DNA of 36,544 nucleotides from a virus. Where the stretch lies: the IMG/VR virus record IMGVR_UViG_3300047560_001611, positions 1 through 36,544 of that record; one strand, given 5' to 3'. The notes under the pieces were generated by a model. The model had not been told where the DNA came from, searched no databases, and was given only the letters and a program-made list of their open reading frames with translations. Position numbers and translations under genes: made by a program. This document shows, one piece after another, positions 1,940 to 23,068 of this stretch; position 1 is the first letter of the stretch, and the number at the start of each line of letters is the position of its first letter.

Positions 1940-4073
1940 CCATGACGCCTATGATTTTTGCGATGCTGAGGTCTTTGACGGCTCTTTGGTACGTTCTGTC
2001 GCTGAATTTGTCGTCAGCAGCACACAAATGTCGGAATGAGGACAGTAGATCTGCGCGTCTGACACACAGTTTTTCTGCCGGTATTCCGGGTACTCCATAC
2101 CGTTTTCCGAAGTCCGCGATGGCTTTGTCGAGCGCCTCAAGCACGAAAATCTCGGCCTGTGTGAGGTTCTTTTTCTGTCGCTTTTTAACTTCGATTTTCT
2201 CACAGGGTCTAAGCCCTAGTGAGACGATATTCGGGTCCAGTTTGTCTGTCCTGATGCGCTGCATAATGAAGTGAAACTCGACCCCGTCCTCTGATTCCTT
2301 CTGCTTTGTCGTGGTCAGTTTCCCGGTCAGGTGGTCCTTGTCCTCTTCATCTGATGTGCGGGTGCATTCGAGTTCCGCGTCCACGGCACCGAGCAATGCT
2401 GACGAGCCACGCATGCCCTTTGACTCGTCCTTACCGGCATGGTGGACCACCAGCACCGAGCAACTGAGCTGCGCTATTAGTTCGCCGATTACTGATATGA
2501 ATTGGCTCATGTCTGCCGAGCTGTTCTCGTCCCCGACGAAGTTCCGAGCTAGCGTATCTATGACTATAAGGGATGGCGCGATACCGAGTTCCCTGATCTC
2601 CTTGATGAGCTCCTGCATGTCTTCCAGCGTCGAGCTGAGGTTCAGGCTTCTCTTAATGAAATAGAGAGGCACAGACGGCTCAATCTCGTGAGCTATACGT
2701 GATGCGTCAGAGCGCTTCTTAAGCCCTGCTTGGCCTTCCCCTGCGATGTATAGGCACGTCCCTTGAGTAGTCGGCTTATCGAATGCGGGTTTACCCGCTG
2801 CGATCATCTGGCTGAGGTATATTGCCACGAATGACTTGAAGCTGCCCGGTCTTCCGTAGATCGCTGCGAATGCCTTTGCTGGTATTAGGTCTTCTATCAG
2901 CCATTGCACTGGCTCGTCGGTGAGCTGGTCCATGCGCAGGATTTCGATGCGCTTTTTGTTTTGCGGTGCAGCATTATCTTGTTGCGGTGCAACGATGCTC
3001 GCACTGTGATCCCGCATCTCCGAGAGCTGTTCCGTGATGCTCTTTTCTCTTGGTTGCAGCGACCGGAGTGCGGCAGAGTTATCCCCAGAAAAATTTACTA
3101 GTGCGTAGATCGCGAACGGGTCCATCACTTTCTCTGACAGCGGATCATGCGCGCCGTGATGGGAATAGGTGATCCAGTCGCCACGAGATCCACGGAACAG
3201 TAATACTCCCGCTGTGCCTGTGCTGCTCGTGGGAGACACGTATCGGTATGCGTCATGCCGCTTGTCGTAATGGCTAAACTTGTACCCCATCGATGCCAGT
3301 TGCGCGCGCATCCATTCGAGACCGTGCTGCTGATTGAAATCTGTGATCGTGTTGCTCGACTGGTTATGCGGAAGAGCGATCTTCAACAGGTCTATCTGTG
3401 CGTCCAAACTGGTCTGTTCGCGCTGCCACTTTAAGGCTGTCTCGATCTCGAAGATCTTCCCGTCGAGGTAATCGCGGTGCACGAAACGCTCGCGCTCTTC
3501 CTCTTTGCTGACGCGTGGGAGGAACCACGGCTGTGACCAACGATAGTTCTCTGTTACGCAGTTCATCCAGATCTTACGCTTATGGAGTTCTGCGATCAGG
3601 TAATCAACAGCAGCGGTCAGATCCTCTTGCGACTGCATCTGGCACGGGATGACTACACGGAATTTCCAGAAGCTGACAACGCCATCAGAGCCACGGTTGC
3701 TGTGTGACGTGTGCATGATGTGAGCGATGCCCATGTCTTTGAGCGCTTCGTGCACGTCATAGAAATAGGGGGCACCGGGTGTGATCTCGCCTGTCTCTGG
3801 ATCGATGGACGAGTCGCCGTCGAGGATAATCAGTTCCGCTGATCTGAGGTTCTCGTCGGCGCGCTTGCAGATCGTGAGATCACCGCCCCGTATCATGTAT
3901 GAGCCATCCTTTGGCCCGACACGAACGCGCTTCAACCGGTCACTGAGATCCTTCAACGTGTAATCTTTAGATGTGAGGCTTGTGTCCTTAAAACCGTTAT
4001 TGGCAAAGGCTAACGACATCTTGTGCATAGCAGAGTTGTGTATCACTGCATCTTGTTGTAGGCTTTCACTCAC
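1860..4073 (-). CDS. Bifunctional primase-helicase (AEP-like primase plus RepA/DnaB-type RecA-fold ATPase)
   Basis: 737 residues from a GTG start at 4073, with GGAG six bases upstream. The N-terminal half has archaeo-eukaryotic-primase-like features: ILDGD (residues 83-87) as the metal-binding D-x-D, HTSHSN (121-126), FRVVIP (138-143) and QPWFLPR (181-187). The C-terminal half is a hexameric-helicase ATPase: Walker A GRPGSFKS (407-414), GEGQAG (445-450), Walker B SLIVID (501-506), the sensor-like VVHHAGKD (542-549) and RGSSAL (555-560). Together they indicate a replicative enzyme that opens and primes DNA, as in RepA-like AAA_25 helicases of phages. The N-terminal primase assignment rests on motifs only. 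The last codons fall in a cluster of TGTCGC repeats, and a 17-bp hairpin precedes the gene. Confidence 0.85.
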   Translation of the reverse strand: MSESLQQDAVIHNSAMHKMSLAFANNGFKDTSLTSKDYTLKDLSDRLKRVRVGPKDGSYMIRGGDLTICKRADENLRSAELIILDGDSSIDPETGEITPGAPYFYDVHEALKDMGIAHIMHTSHSNRGSDGVVSFWKFRVVIPCQMQSQEDLTAAVDYLIAELHKRKIWMNCVTENYRWSQPWFLPRVSKEEERERFVHRDYLDGKIFEIETALKWQREQTSLDAQIDLLKIALPHNQSSNTITDFNQQHGLEWMRAQLASMGYKFSHYDKRHDAYRYVSPTSSTGTAGVLLFRGSRGDWITYSHHGAHDPLSEKVMDPFAIYALVNFSGDNSAALRSLQPREKSITEQLSEMRDHSASIVAPQQDNAAPQNKKRIEILRMDQLTDEPVQWLIEDLIPAKAFAAIYGRPGSFKSFVAIYLSQMIAAGKPAFDKPTTQGTCLYIAGEGQAGLKKRSDASRIAHEIEPSVPLYFIKRSLNLSSTLEDMQELIKEIRELGIAPSLIVIDTLARNFVGDENSSADMSQFISVIGELIAQLSCSVLVVHHAGKDESKGMRGSSALLGAVDAELECTRTSDEEDKDHLTGKLTTTKQKESEDGVEFHFIMQRIRTDKLDPNIVSLGLRPCEKIEVKKRQKKNLTQAEIFVLEALDKAIADFGKRYGVPGIPAEKLCVRRADLLSSFRHLCAADDKFSDRTYQRAVKDLSIAKIIGVMGDILWKNDIDQRVTATSDTATWGDTE

Positions 4074-18172: not shown

Positions 18173-18796
18173 TTAATTTTCCCAAACAGAAATTTTTAAA
18201 CCCAAAGAATATATCTTTTTCATAAAGGTATATGCATATTGAGCTTCTGATTTTTTTACACCAATTTTATCAGCAAACTCCATTAGTGGAACTTTTTCAC
18301 CGTTAATATTCAAATAACGTGTATTTGTCCTATTATTTTGTTGTGTTTTTGCAGATGCCCATCTGCAATTTTCTGGGCTATAATTTCCGTTTACATCAAT
18401 CCTATCGATTGACATACCAATAGGAGCTTCACCCATATCATCATAAAAATTTTCAAAAATTTTCCATCGTTCGCAAACACTAATCCCACGATCATAGTAA
18501 TTTTGTTTATCTTTATAGTGTGATTCACATCTATCTATCATTCCAGACCAAATTTTGTGAATGCGAGTTTTGGCCATACCATGGATTGGTTTAAAGCTAT
18601 TCTTAAAACAGTTTTCTTTTGCTGCTTCTTTTTTTCTACATCCGCATGATGTAGTAACACCAGCGTTCAACCTATATGTAGCAACCCATGTTTTTTTACC
18701 ACATTCACATTCACACGCCCATTCCTTACGATTTAGTCGGCTTCTAGTGTCATTAAGAACTGTAAGTTTACCAAAATTTTGACCAGCTAAATCCAT
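18173..18796 (-). CDS. HNH/AP2-type endonuclease inserted in the lysis module
   Basis: 207 residues. The N-terminal segment FGKLTVLNDTRSR-WACECECGKKTWV and SCGCRKKE is a zinc-ribbon-like region common to these mobile nucleases; IDRIDVNGNYSPENCRWAS (residues about 130-148) with TQQNNRTN following is the typical HNH-AP2 core. The coding sequence is strikingly AT-rich compared with the lysis genes on both sides and sits cleanly between a membrane protein (stop 18806) and the holin start (18171), the pattern of a free-standing homing endonuclease that entered an intergenic site. Confidence 0.88.
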   Translation of the reverse strand: MDLAGQNFGKLTVLNDTRSRLNRKEWACECECGKKTWVATYRLNAGVTTSCGCRKKEAAKENCFKNSFKPIHGMAKTRIHKIWSGMIDRCESHYKDKQNYYDRGISVCERWKIFENFYDDMGEAPIGMSIDRIDVNGNYSPENCRWASAKTQQNNRTNTRYLNINGEKVPLMEFADKIGVKKSEAQYAYTFMKKIYSLGLKISVWEN

Positions 18797-19493: not shown

Positions 19494-19748
19494 TTAGACT
19501 GCTGGTGTTTCTTCTGGCTGTGCCGATGGATTTGGATCAGTAAACTGACCAGTCGCTGGGTTATAAAGCCAGCCAAAAGATACAGGTGAATCATCGGGAA
19601 GGCCGATAAGCGTGCATCCTTCTGGCGCAGGATCAACAGCAGGATCAGCAACAATAATATTTATCACCGTGTTGTCGCTGTTCTGCACAACTGCACAGCG
19701 TTGAGGATTACCATTAGGTTGAACCATTTGCATAGGACCGCCAATCAT
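19494..19748 (-). CDS. Small tail-associated protein, 84 residues
   Basis: The start chosen is ATG 19748 (MIGGPMQMVQ), which shares bases with the TAA of the fibre gene (TAATG) and has GGGAG 8 nt upstream; an earlier ATG at 19763 would overlap the fibre gene. The core RCAVVQNSDNTVINIIVADP, PEGCTLIGLPDD and FGWLYNPATGQFTDP is a recurring motif (D-N-x-V-x-N-I-I-x-A-D, G-W-x-Y-N-x-x-T-G-x-F) in short proteins encoded after tail fibres. It may assist fibre assembly or be a fibre tip protein; function is unproven. Confidence 0.7.
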   Translation of the reverse strand: MIGGPMQMVQPNGNPQRCAVVQNSDNTVINIIVADPAVDPAPEGCTLIGLPDDSPVSFGWLYNPATGQFTDPNPSAQPEETPAV

Positions 19749-21202
19749 TAGGTGTACTCCCAAATACGAATCATTCCTTGTGCGCCTGTGCCGCCATTTG
19801 CTCCTGCGCCGCCCCCATAATTGCCTCCAGCATTAGAGTTTCTTCCTCCACCGCCAAATACGGATGAGCCGCCACTACCGGAGCCTGCTACGCCAGAATT
19901 ACCGTCACCTTTTTGGCCATCTGATCCTTTAACGTTTAAGTCACCATTAGAACCAGTTCCGGCCAATCCGCCAGCAGCAGGGCCAGTTGCAACAGTCCCA
20001 CCAGATGCGGTAATTGTAGTCGCAGATACAGTAAACGTTGTATTGCCACCGCTACCTGATGTTGATCCACCACTACCGATTGCGTAAGTATAAGCTGTGC
20101 TACCAGTTACCGTAAAATACTTTGCAACATACCCGCCGCCGCCACCGCCTGCGTTCCCGGCATTTGTAGAACCGCCACCTCCCCCACCAACTGCTTCAAC
20201 ATAAATCTTCGTGCAGTTAGATGGGGTTGTGTATGATGTACCGCTTGTCAGAATTTGCGGAGCGCGAATGAGCGTTCCCGATGCTGATGTTGATATAGTT
20301 GTCCATGTAGGAGGAGCATTACCATTGGATTGTAGAACCTGACCAGATGTTCCGTATGCTGTGCCAGATGAGCCGAATGATACGCCACCGTTTGAGGTGA
20401 TGCGCATACGTTCGGAAGTTACGCTATTTGATTTTGTGAAAAAGCGCATATCTCCTTGATAATTTGATGATGCAGAATATCCACTAAAGCCGATAAATGA
20501 CGCGCCAACATACCCAGAACCGCTGTTCCATAAATCTGCTGAAGTTCCTGTAACGCCATTTTGCGAAACCCCGACAAACAAAGTTCCGCCACTACTATAA
20601 TCGGTATCAGACGATCTGGTTTGATTGTAAGCGACATTATAAATTTGCTGGGCGTTTGATGTTGCAGTGGTAGAATTAATGCGTATTTTTGCGCCAGATG
20701 TTGAAGATAAATTCAACAAATCAACTGGCGAACTCGTCCCTATCCCGACGTTGCCAGACGTATTAACTGTCATAGCGGTCGTAGCACCGTTATTGCCAAC
20801 CTTGAACGAGATCGCATCAGATGTGCCGACGCCTGAAGTTGATTTGAGAGTCAACGTCGATGACGCCGTTGTGCCACCAATAACTGTAGGCACAGTTTCA
20901 GATGTAGCGCCGACCGCAGTCGTATAGTTGAGAGTAGTAAATGTACCCGCAGCAGCCGCAGTTCCACCAATCGCTGGAGGAGATGCAAGATATGTCGAGA
21001 CACCTGCCCCCGTCAGAGTTCCGGTAACCGTCAAAGTCTTACCAGTACCGATATTCAGACCCACCGACGTGCCATTACCGGCAGCGTTAAAGATGCCGTC
21101 AACGATGTCCCAGTCGCTATTTGTCTTGGTGCCCCACGTATCGCGGGATGCTCCGACTTCAGGCTTCGTCAGGTTAAGGTTTGTGGTATAGGTATCCGCC
21201 AT
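19748..21202 (-). CDS. Tail fibre with glycine-rich receptor-binding-like C-terminus
   Basis: 484 residues. The N-terminus (MADTYTTNLNLTKPEVGASR, D-T-W-G-T-K-T-N-S-D-W-D-I-V-D) is the conserved virion-attachment module of many phage fibres. The middle is Ser/Thr-rich beta repeats (NVGIGTSSPVDLLNL, GQVLQSNGNAPP). The last ~175 residues are extremely glycine rich, with several runs of four to six Gly separated by short loops (AVGGGGGGS, GNAGGGGGGY, VFGGGGRNSN, GNYGGGAGANGG), ending GMIRIWEYT. Glycine-run sandwiches of this kind are known from gp38-type adhesins that bind host receptors. It is the best candidate host-range protein. Confidence 0.8.
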   Translation of the reverse strand: MADTYTTNLNLTKPEVGASRDTWGTKTNSDWDIVDGIFNAAGNGTSVGLNIGTGKTLTVTGTLTGAGVSTYLASPPAIGGTAAAAGTFTTLNYTTAVGATSETVPTVIGGTTASSTLTLKSTSGVGTSDAISFKVGNNGATTAMTVNTSGNVGIGTSSPVDLLNLSSTSGAKIRINSTTATSNAQQIYNVAYNQTRSSDTDYSSGGTLFVGVSQNGVTGTSADLWNSGSGYVGASFIGFSGYSASSNYQGDMRFFTKSNSVTSERMRITSNGGVSFGSSGTAYGTSGQVLQSNGNAPPTWTTISTSASGTLIRAPQILTSGTSYTTPSNCTKIYVEAVGGGGGGSTNAGNAGGGGGGYVAKYFTVTGSTAYTYAIGSGGSTSGSGGNTTFTVSATTITASGGTVATGPAAGGLAGTGSNGDLNVKGSDGQKGDGNSGVAGSGSGGSSVFGGGGRNSNAGGNYGGGAGANGGTGAQGMIRIWEYT

Positions 21203-21213
21203 AACGGTAACTC

Positions 21214-22044
21214 CTAGTTAACTGTCCAAGTCTCGCCAGAGATAGTCTGCGGCACCCATGTCGCTGACGGGATAACACTGCTATCCCATGACTCAGAGCT
21301 AACACTTTGCGTTGACCAATTCTCTATCACATTTTCTTGCGTTTGCCACGTCTCTGACTGGATACCCTCAGGCTCCCAGAGATAGCGACCAGCAGCACTC
21401 ATCCCAGATTGGCATAACACACCAGCGACAGCGTGAAGAACTCGTTGCGCTTCTGCTGTAGCTGTTGATACTGCAACGATATCAGCAATACCACGCCAGA
21501 TCACTGTCGCGTTCGCCGTCGTATCAGACTGAGATACAGCCGCAGCCGCAACAAGTCTCACGCGTGTCGCGGTGGCTGATGCCGCAGAAGTGGCGATCGC
21601 AGCGGCAGAGGCAAGCTGAACGGCATATCCGTCAGCCGTCGCTCCAGACTGCGCCGCGATAGTTTCGCTGACAGTGCGAATGACATACGGGCCAGCGGTC
21701 GCGCCACTCGTCGCCGCAATAGCATCAGCCGCAGTGCGAACCCGTGTTCCAGACGCTGTGGCAGAACTCGTGGCAGGTATGACACAAACTGCAATTTCGG
21801 TATCAGCCGCAGCCGCACCTGACGAGGAGACGGATATTACGTTCAGCGTTGCGTTCTGGACGCGGATGCCGGTTGCTGCGGCATTGCTCGTAGCTGCCGC
21901 TGTAGCTGACACGGTACGAGTACGGCTGGCAGAAGCCGTCGCGTTAGAGGTAGCCGTCATCGTACAGGTGGCATCTACGACTAATGCTGTGCCGTAAACG
22001 CCTAACCCGTAATCGAAACTACCGTAATCGCGACCGTTCGCCAT
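21214..22044 (-). CDS. Repeat-built fibre protein: ten 20-residue plus five 10-residue repeats
   Basis: 276 residues. After a 27-residue head (MANGRDYGSFDYGLGVYGTA...) residues 28-227 divide exactly into ten units of 20, for example AIAATSGATAGPYVIRTVSE, TIAAQSGATADGYAVQLASA and AAIATSAASATATRVRLVAA: a small-residue A-x-S-x-A-T-A half followed by a beta-like R-V-R half. Residues 228-276 divide into five units of about 10 with a central E-T/S/N-W: IQSETWQTQE, NVIENWSTQS, VSSESWDSSV, IPSATWVPQT, ISGETWTVN. No family is recognised. Constant period implies a solenoid or trimeric beta-fibre. It lies among tail-fibre genes between the adaptor and the main fibre. Confidence 0.75.
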   Translation of the reverse strand: MANGRDYGSFDYGLGVYGTALVVDATCTMTATSNATASASRTRTVSATAAATSNAAATGIRVQNATLNVISVSSSGAAAADTEIAVCVIPATSSATASGTRVRTAADAIAATSGATAGPYVIRTVSETIAAQSGATADGYAVQLASAAAIATSAASATATRVRLVAAAAVSQSDTTANATVIWRGIADIVAVSTATAEAQRVLHAVAGVLCQSGMSAAGRYLWEPEGIQSETWQTQENVIENWSTQSVSSESWDSSVIPSATWVPQTISGETWTVN

Positions 22045-22047
22045 TTA

Positions 22048-22440
22048 TCAGTCCAAGGTGATGGTCAAAGCACCTGTGTTGAAGCGAAGCACGTCGCCGG
22101 TATCGATTGTCTTCGAAGTCGTGAGATCAGCAAAAGCTAAAAGGTTACCGCTCGACGAGGCATCAAAGATACCCGCCGCTACAACTGTGCCCCATGAACC
22201 GCCTGCTGTTGGAAACTCTACAGCAGCAGAGTTGGCAGCTGTCGTTGGAGCTGTACCTGTTACGGAAAACGCAACACTCTGACGGGCATACGAAGTACCG
22301 CTGACCTCAGTACCACCACCAGATTCGCCAGGGGCAACAGTGTAAAGCGCAACGTACCACGATGTCGGGCGCGTCGCTGAGTTCGTCGTAAAAACCCAGT
22401 TCAGAACAAGATCTTCTGAGTAATTGGTAAAACCTGCCAT
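22048..22440 (-). CDS. Small tail fibre / tip protein, 130 residues
   Basis: MAGFTNYSEDLVLNWVFTTN, then TSWYVALYTVAPGESGGGTE, SYARQSVAFSVTG and AVEFPTAGGSWGTVVAAGIF, ending in DTGDVLRFNTGALTITLD. This order (Y-x-E-x-x-V-L-N-x-x-F, V-A-L-Y-T, Y-x-R-x-x-V, F-x-x-A-x-G-x-W-G) is a widespread phage tail-fibre-associated protein family. It is all beta, without membrane segments. It sits between the adaptor and the repeat fibre gene, each separated by only a few bases. Confidence 0.78.
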   Translation of the reverse strand: MAGFTNYSEDLVLNWVFTTNSATRPTSWYVALYTVAPGESGGGTEVSGTSYARQSVAFSVTGTAPTTAANSAAVEFPTAGGSWGTVVAAGIFDASSSGNLLAFADLTTSKTIDTGDVLRFNTGALTITLD

Positions 22441-22450
22441 TTCTAACTCC

Positions 22451-23068
22451 TTATCCGTAAGTTATTCGCGTACGAGCAATCAGCGGTCCACCACTGTGTA
22501 ACGCCTTATCGCTTTCAAGTTGCAGTGAATCAAGCCGCGAATTGTACATGTTCGCGAATAACCCGACACGCTGATCGTCCAATAAGAACGGTGAAGCGTG
22601 AACGAGAGCGCCATACAGGTAAAGGTCAGGAGCCTTTACGAGTAACCAATTAGAAGCAACGCTAACACTGAGAGACGGGATCTTACCGTAATAGATCATC
22701 TCAATGTCGATGTTAGAACTTGGTGCGGGGACAATCTCAAGCGCATCATCCATAATCGAATAGAATGACGGCTGAGTGATAACCTGCTGCTTCAGAATGC
22801 GGTCTGCCTCATCAAGCGTAACGAAACGCAGCGGCTGTGCACCGTCGATGATATGGATGTTGATTGCCTCAAGCCAGTCAGCAGGAAGCTGCACATATTC
22901 TTGGTTGCTGGTAGCCTGAGCACGCACAACCATCTTCTGGTGGCGTAAACGGCTGTTCACATCAGCTTCCACGAATTGGATAAAAGTAGGGATCTGAGAC
23001 GTTAAATCATCACGGTTCAACCATGACGCGATCTCTGACTGAAGGGTCGAGTAATTCGTAATTGTCAT
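22451..23068 (-). CDS. Head-tail adaptor, P22 gp4-like
   Basis: 205 residues. MTITNYSTLQSEIASWLNRD with IPTFIQFVEADVNSRLR and MVVRAQATSNQEYVQLPADWLEAINIHI is the conserved helix-helix-strand start of phage adaptor proteins that attach as a ring beneath the portal. Further conserved pieces are PSFYSIMDDALEIVPAP, IEMIYYGKIPSLS and NWLLVKAPDLYLYGALVHAS. Together with the P22-like portal and gp10-like protein it defines a short-tail connector. Its order after capsid genes is as expected. Confidence 0.85.
   Translation of the reverse strand: MTITNYSTLQSEIASWLNRDDLTSQIPTFIQFVEADVNSRLRHQKMVVRAQATSNQEYVQLPADWLEAINIHIIDGAQPLRFVTLDEADRILKQQVITQPSFYSIMDDALEIVPAPSSNIDIEMIYYGKIPSLSVSVASNWLLVKAPDLYLYGALVHASPFLLDDQRVGLFANMYNSRLDSLQLESDKALHSGGPLIARTRITYG

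Follow-up and report, generated by a model that had tools for sequence, protein, structure and literature searches.

The 276-residue protein encoded at positions 21214 to 22044 of the window, the whole stretch of 36,544 nucleotides of viral DNA that was analyzed, is probably the string, or "rope," of a chain-like fiber of the type found in phage GP4, its repeats serving to dock gp80-type bead proteins; we place the probability of this reading at roughly 0.75. Each fiber I of GP4 is reportedly made of five dimers of gp80 that an elongated rope protein joins together. In the arrangement proposed here, the string would hardly fold by itself, each unit of 20 residues, composed of two short halves that could form β-strands, would dock one gp80-type bead subunit, and bead dimers would be threaded on the string at a fixed spacing, the repeat number setting both the number of beads and the length of the fiber. 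The conserved N terminus and the W-rich C terminus would serve as attachments to the virion and to a tip component. The features concerned are as follows.

21214..22044, minus strand: string ("rope") protein, 276 residues, from open reading frame and repeat analysis and linkage to the bead gene
21964..22044, minus strand: conserved N-terminal segment of the string, residues 1-27 (MANGRDYGSFDYGLGVYG...), proposed on indirect grounds to be an anchor
21364..21963, minus strand: residues 28-227, ten repeats of 20 residues, each proposed to dock a bead subunit, from repeats, autocorrelation, and predicted strands
21217..21363, minus strand: five W-decapeptides, residues 228-276, in the same phase as the 20-mers
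22048..22440, minus strand: gp80-type bead protein, 130 residues, PF23140 (GP4 fiber I protein gp80), Pfam E 4.9e-41
22451..23068, minus strand: SU10-type head-tail adaptor, PF24175, E 1.2e-34
19748..21202, minus strand: downstream tail-fiber gene with a Gly-rich C-terminal domain, phrog_863 (E 1e-21) and PF21722

The string gene starts at 22044 and stops at 21214, its first base lying 3 nucleotides past the stop of the upstream gene. The initial annotation had divided residues 28-227 without gap into ten 20-residue units, and this division is borne out by the alignment of the units and by autocorrelation, in which the four best lags are 20, 40, 60, and 80 (z 9.7, 8.2, 8.1, and 7.5) and the score at lag 20 is 1.12 as compared with no more than 0.37 in any of 1000 block shuffles. 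S and A occupy positions 6 and 10, respectively, in all ten units, and the mean identity between units is 31% for amino acids and 40% for nucleotides; the strict structural period that had been suggested is supported, in the sense of a 20-residue period under structural constraint. The DNA is 43% identical at lag 60 versus about 21% at off-frame lags, and because about 60% of the bases differ between units, the repeats are, to judge from their divergence, old. Recent slippage as the sole cause of the repeats is therefore rejected, and the earlier statement that it played no part is correct for the present sequence, yet units have been gained and lost in evolution.

Tryptophan residues are present at positions 223, 233, 243, 253, 263, and 273, a spacing of exactly 10, so that the tail does fall into five units of about 10 residues as first described, but E-x-W is found in only four of the five decapeptides, the fourth having A-T-W, and the final unit has 9 residues. 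The accompanying proposal that the period changes from 20 to 10 does not survive, since the W series begins within the tenth 20-mer with its phase unchanged and the tail varies among relatives by 20 residues. Among 75 homologous loci, 33 have three decapeptides, 42 have five, and none has four. The W-rich tail is thus better read as a continuation of 20-residue units, each with halves that resemble one another, than as a switch to a half period and, being in phase with the 20-mers and varying by 20, may represent the same dock in other chemistry, for a different partner or for the last bead.

Homologues of the string were drawn from two scans of viral contigs and are 32-94% identical. They form length classes of 174, 236, 253/254, 256, 260/261, 273/274, 276/277, 296, and 336 residues, and in the main register the length to a conserved "LW" preceding the tail is 123, 203, 223, 243, or 283 residues, all of which equal 3 modulo 20; further values of 220, 224, and 227 belong mostly to subfamilies with a different N terminus. 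One string (L030) has five units fewer than its nearest kin and another (L014) has three units more than that of the window. The lengths and decapeptide counts come from related loci and are not independent events, but at the level of sequence the homologues clearly change by whole units, as the initial annotation had anticipated for copy number. Tyr7, Gly8, Gly13, Gly15, and Gly18 of the N-terminal segment are invariant in 40 homologues. Searches of Pfam, PHROGs, and the PDB with the window string itself gave nothing usable, a scan of bacterial genomes with the string alignment detected no relatives, and tblastn of the string against phage records gave no match, although MW202462 carries a protein of the same architecture.

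The genome in the window is podovirus-like, with genes for a terminase, for SU10-type portal, major capsid, and adaptor proteins, and for ejection-type proteins. Between the tail fiber and the endolysin, on the minus strand at 18173-18796, lies a gene for 207 residues whose best match among HNH endonuclease PHROGs has E 1.8e-61. The bead gene lies directly upstream of the string, between adaptor and string. By sequence, its product matches chain 8jou_a of the PDB with E 1.9e-10, and its AlphaFold model (pLDDT 92.4) has as its top PDB fold match the same chain, from "Fiber I and fiber-tail-adaptor of phage GP4" (TM 0.80), followed by connector or neck chains of Bas63 and Sf14. As the initial annotation had it, the string looks like a component of a fiber. 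Entry 8JOU contains 10 gp80 chains, and the fitted number of repeat units is 11 in the GP4-type rope and 10 in those of JC1 and BcepIL02 (self-fitted counts, with ends uncertain by about one); with ten units in the window string, one repeat per bead subunit would be the simplest count.

If it is the bead that sets the period, a period-20 gene should adjoin the bead even where the repeat sequence differs. A bead is directly upstream in 76 of 76 window-type strings tested, and in the window clade the gene at +1 has period 20 in 67 of 77 cases versus 1 of 541 at distant positions. That one distant gene is itself a string, which in L154 has been parted from its bead by the insertion of two genes, one tail-spike-like and one small (L154:6400-9051); the pair is thus separable. 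In loci fetched with divergent beads only, the +1 gene has period 20 in 41 of 59 distinct open reading frames of the MEP401 clade and 55 of 57 of the C72C1 clade, and the frequency at distant positions in the loci of these clades is 0 of 871. Many loci in each set are akin, and these counts are therefore not independent. Of the strings of the latter two clades, 40 of 98 match the window-family profile at E < 1e-3, which may reflect either remote homology or a common repeat pattern. Among annotated phages, a period-20 gene follows the gp80 homologue in MW202462, MEP401, MW202879, C72C1, BcepIL02, and JC1, and in the GP4-type genomes L103-L106 the gene after the bead (in L103, positions 2206-3183) encodes 325 residues with period 20. 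In mycobacteriophage Oline, the period-20 gene stands before the bead. This gene, encoding the minor tail protein gp32 (L091:4789-5949), has roughly eight well-defined repeats of 20 residues, ends in a Gly-rich domain, and lies just before the gp80-like gene; a bead-like gene of the Oline type is present in hundreds of mycobacteriophage records.

gp80-type beads are widespread and are often annotated as "head protein" or hypothetical. Contigs with beads are found in bacterial assemblies (Armatimonadetes, Chloroflexota, Nitrospira, Myxococcales, Rhodocyclales, Paenibacillus, and others), where they are probably prophages or phage contaminants, and strong period-20 proteins are often nearby. The strings in such assemblies, from several phyla, have lag 20 as the best among lags 8-45; some exceed 600 residues and some have an extra N-terminal region. 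Three very long period-20 proteins near beads, L364:9062-11236 (724 residues), L341:9287-11248 (653 residues), and L340:8570-12325 (1251 residues), have long non-repeat regions before the repeats, and in L340 also after them; they are possibly long strings carrying other domains. Under strict criteria, a period-20 neighbor is present in only 12 of 31 testable bead clusters (versus 0 of 214 background frames), which tells against the rope reading. In this cluster test the T4-like, Microcystis, and several Paenibacillus bead loci had no such neighbor; in the clusters that do not score, either the string goes unrecognized or the beads are used differently. CRP-4 gp54, Itty13 gp15, and Venkman gp58, which lie beside beads, have no clear period of 20, and three Slicko01 genes tested for bead and string were all negative. 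The gp54 protein of Roseobacter phage CRP-4 (L033:2447-3208), next to its bead, has a period of 8 (z 6.4) with RI-x-E motifs. It is possible, at somewhat less than even odds in our judgment, that many tailed phages share a 20-residue docking code in which n units recruit n gp80-type subunits, the repeat number acts as a ruler of fiber length, and the module has been joined to various tip or tail domains among the phages and prophages of numerous bacterial phyla.

A monomer model of the string based on 40 homologues has a mean pLDDT of 38.8 and a pTM of 0.31, so that the chain is not predicted to fold; its predicted strands, which are short and number two for every 20 residues, lie at 27-32, 37-40, 47-52, 57-60, and onward. 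The 20-residue periodicity expected in a predicted structure by the initial annotation is thus present in register, but at very low confidence and in a monomer, which has no bearing on a trimer. Such a model fits a chain that would gain order on a partner. The initial annotation had raised instead the possibility of a change of helical pitch or of trimer packing in a trimeric fiber. A self-folding trimeric shaft with a 20-residue structural period, to which beads would be attached elsewhere, is in keeping with the strict period, the alternating strand pattern, and the neighboring fiber genes, but we regard it as unlikely, given that the linkage to the bead holds across phages with differing repeat sequences, that the GP4-type rope adjoins gp80, and that the model, although of a monomer, has very low confidence; a self-standing trimer with a change of pitch is not supported, and the gp80 bead neighbor and the GP4 structure suggest a period set by a partner. 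As one specific form of shaft, the triple β-spiral, which has a repeat of 15 residues, was considered and rejected, the best lags being multiples of 20. Slightly less likely still is a β-solenoid spike with one coil per 20-residue unit. Solenoids are usually predicted well, and the low confidence obtained here despite 40 homologues argues against one, as do units that are rich in Ala, Thr, and Ser with no clear hydrophobic core, although the pair of strands that the model has in every 20 residues is a point in its favor, as are the poor β-helix predictions for stretches that adjoin a gp80-like gene of phage LSH1 (PMC13243795). Least probable, and already disfavored, is a low-complexity linker, rich in Ala, Ser, and Thr, that diverges while repeat expansion maintains it and whose units have no specific partner each; this would account for the composition and for the gain and loss of units among relatives but not for an exact unit length kept at about 31% identity or for its recurrence in phages with dissimilar repeats.

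The rope of a bead-chain fiber remains the preferred reading. The fiber type is already known from GP4, but neither the sequence rule of the string nor its spread has, judging by the databases, been described, although the rope gene may have been named in the GP4 paper. The repeats match no Pfam family, and the match in Oline gp32 falls in a Gly-rich domain apart from them; phrog_19041 ("virion structural protein") is limited to the GP4/Lessievirus type; PDB sequence searches with the JC1, BcepIL02, and GP4-type ropes did not find the string, and no chain matches the GP4-type rope; and a full-text literature search for "20-residue repeats" with tail fibers found nothing. If the reading is correct, a simple sequence rule would name the string in phages where it has been overlooked, and fiber length would be predictable from the number of repeats.

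The closest known system is fiber I of GP4 (PDB 8JOU), in which the bead is homologous by sequence and fold, the gene order is likewise adaptor-bead-string, and the gene next to the bead in GP4-type genomes also has period 20. The systems differ in that every unit in the window is exactly 20 residues long, the pattern being one of Ala/Ser/Thr and the tail W-rich, whereas GP4-type units are 19-22 residues, Gly-rich, and followed by another C terminus; sequence homology between the window string and the GP4-type string is not detectable. In the neck whiskers of Sf14 (gp30/gp31), one gp30 chain threads through two whiskers (PMC11821841); here, too, the whisker chain has the bead fold (9c39_K) and is threaded by the product of a neighboring gene, but the whiskers are short, with few subunits. 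Cyanophage A-1(L) is described as having a bead-chain-like neck fiber (gp80-gp82), five per virion (PMC10966104); the beads are gp81 trimers, and no threading string is reported. In the baseplate of A511, an extended chain runs across successive dimers in a beads-on-string manner (PMC10811340), but there are three dimers, no 20-residue repeat is reported, and by the naming in that paper the bead belongs to another family. According to the paper on phage LSH1, gp80 is dimeric and forms a fibril (PMC13243795). In LSH1 itself (gp34-gp36), a poorly predicted stretch of gp34, unexplained by the authors, lies beside gp35, which matches GP4 8JOU (PMC13243795). This stretch of gp34 may be a bead-string repeat, and the rope reading, if true, would be a likely reason for such poorly predicted stretches beside gp80-like genes.
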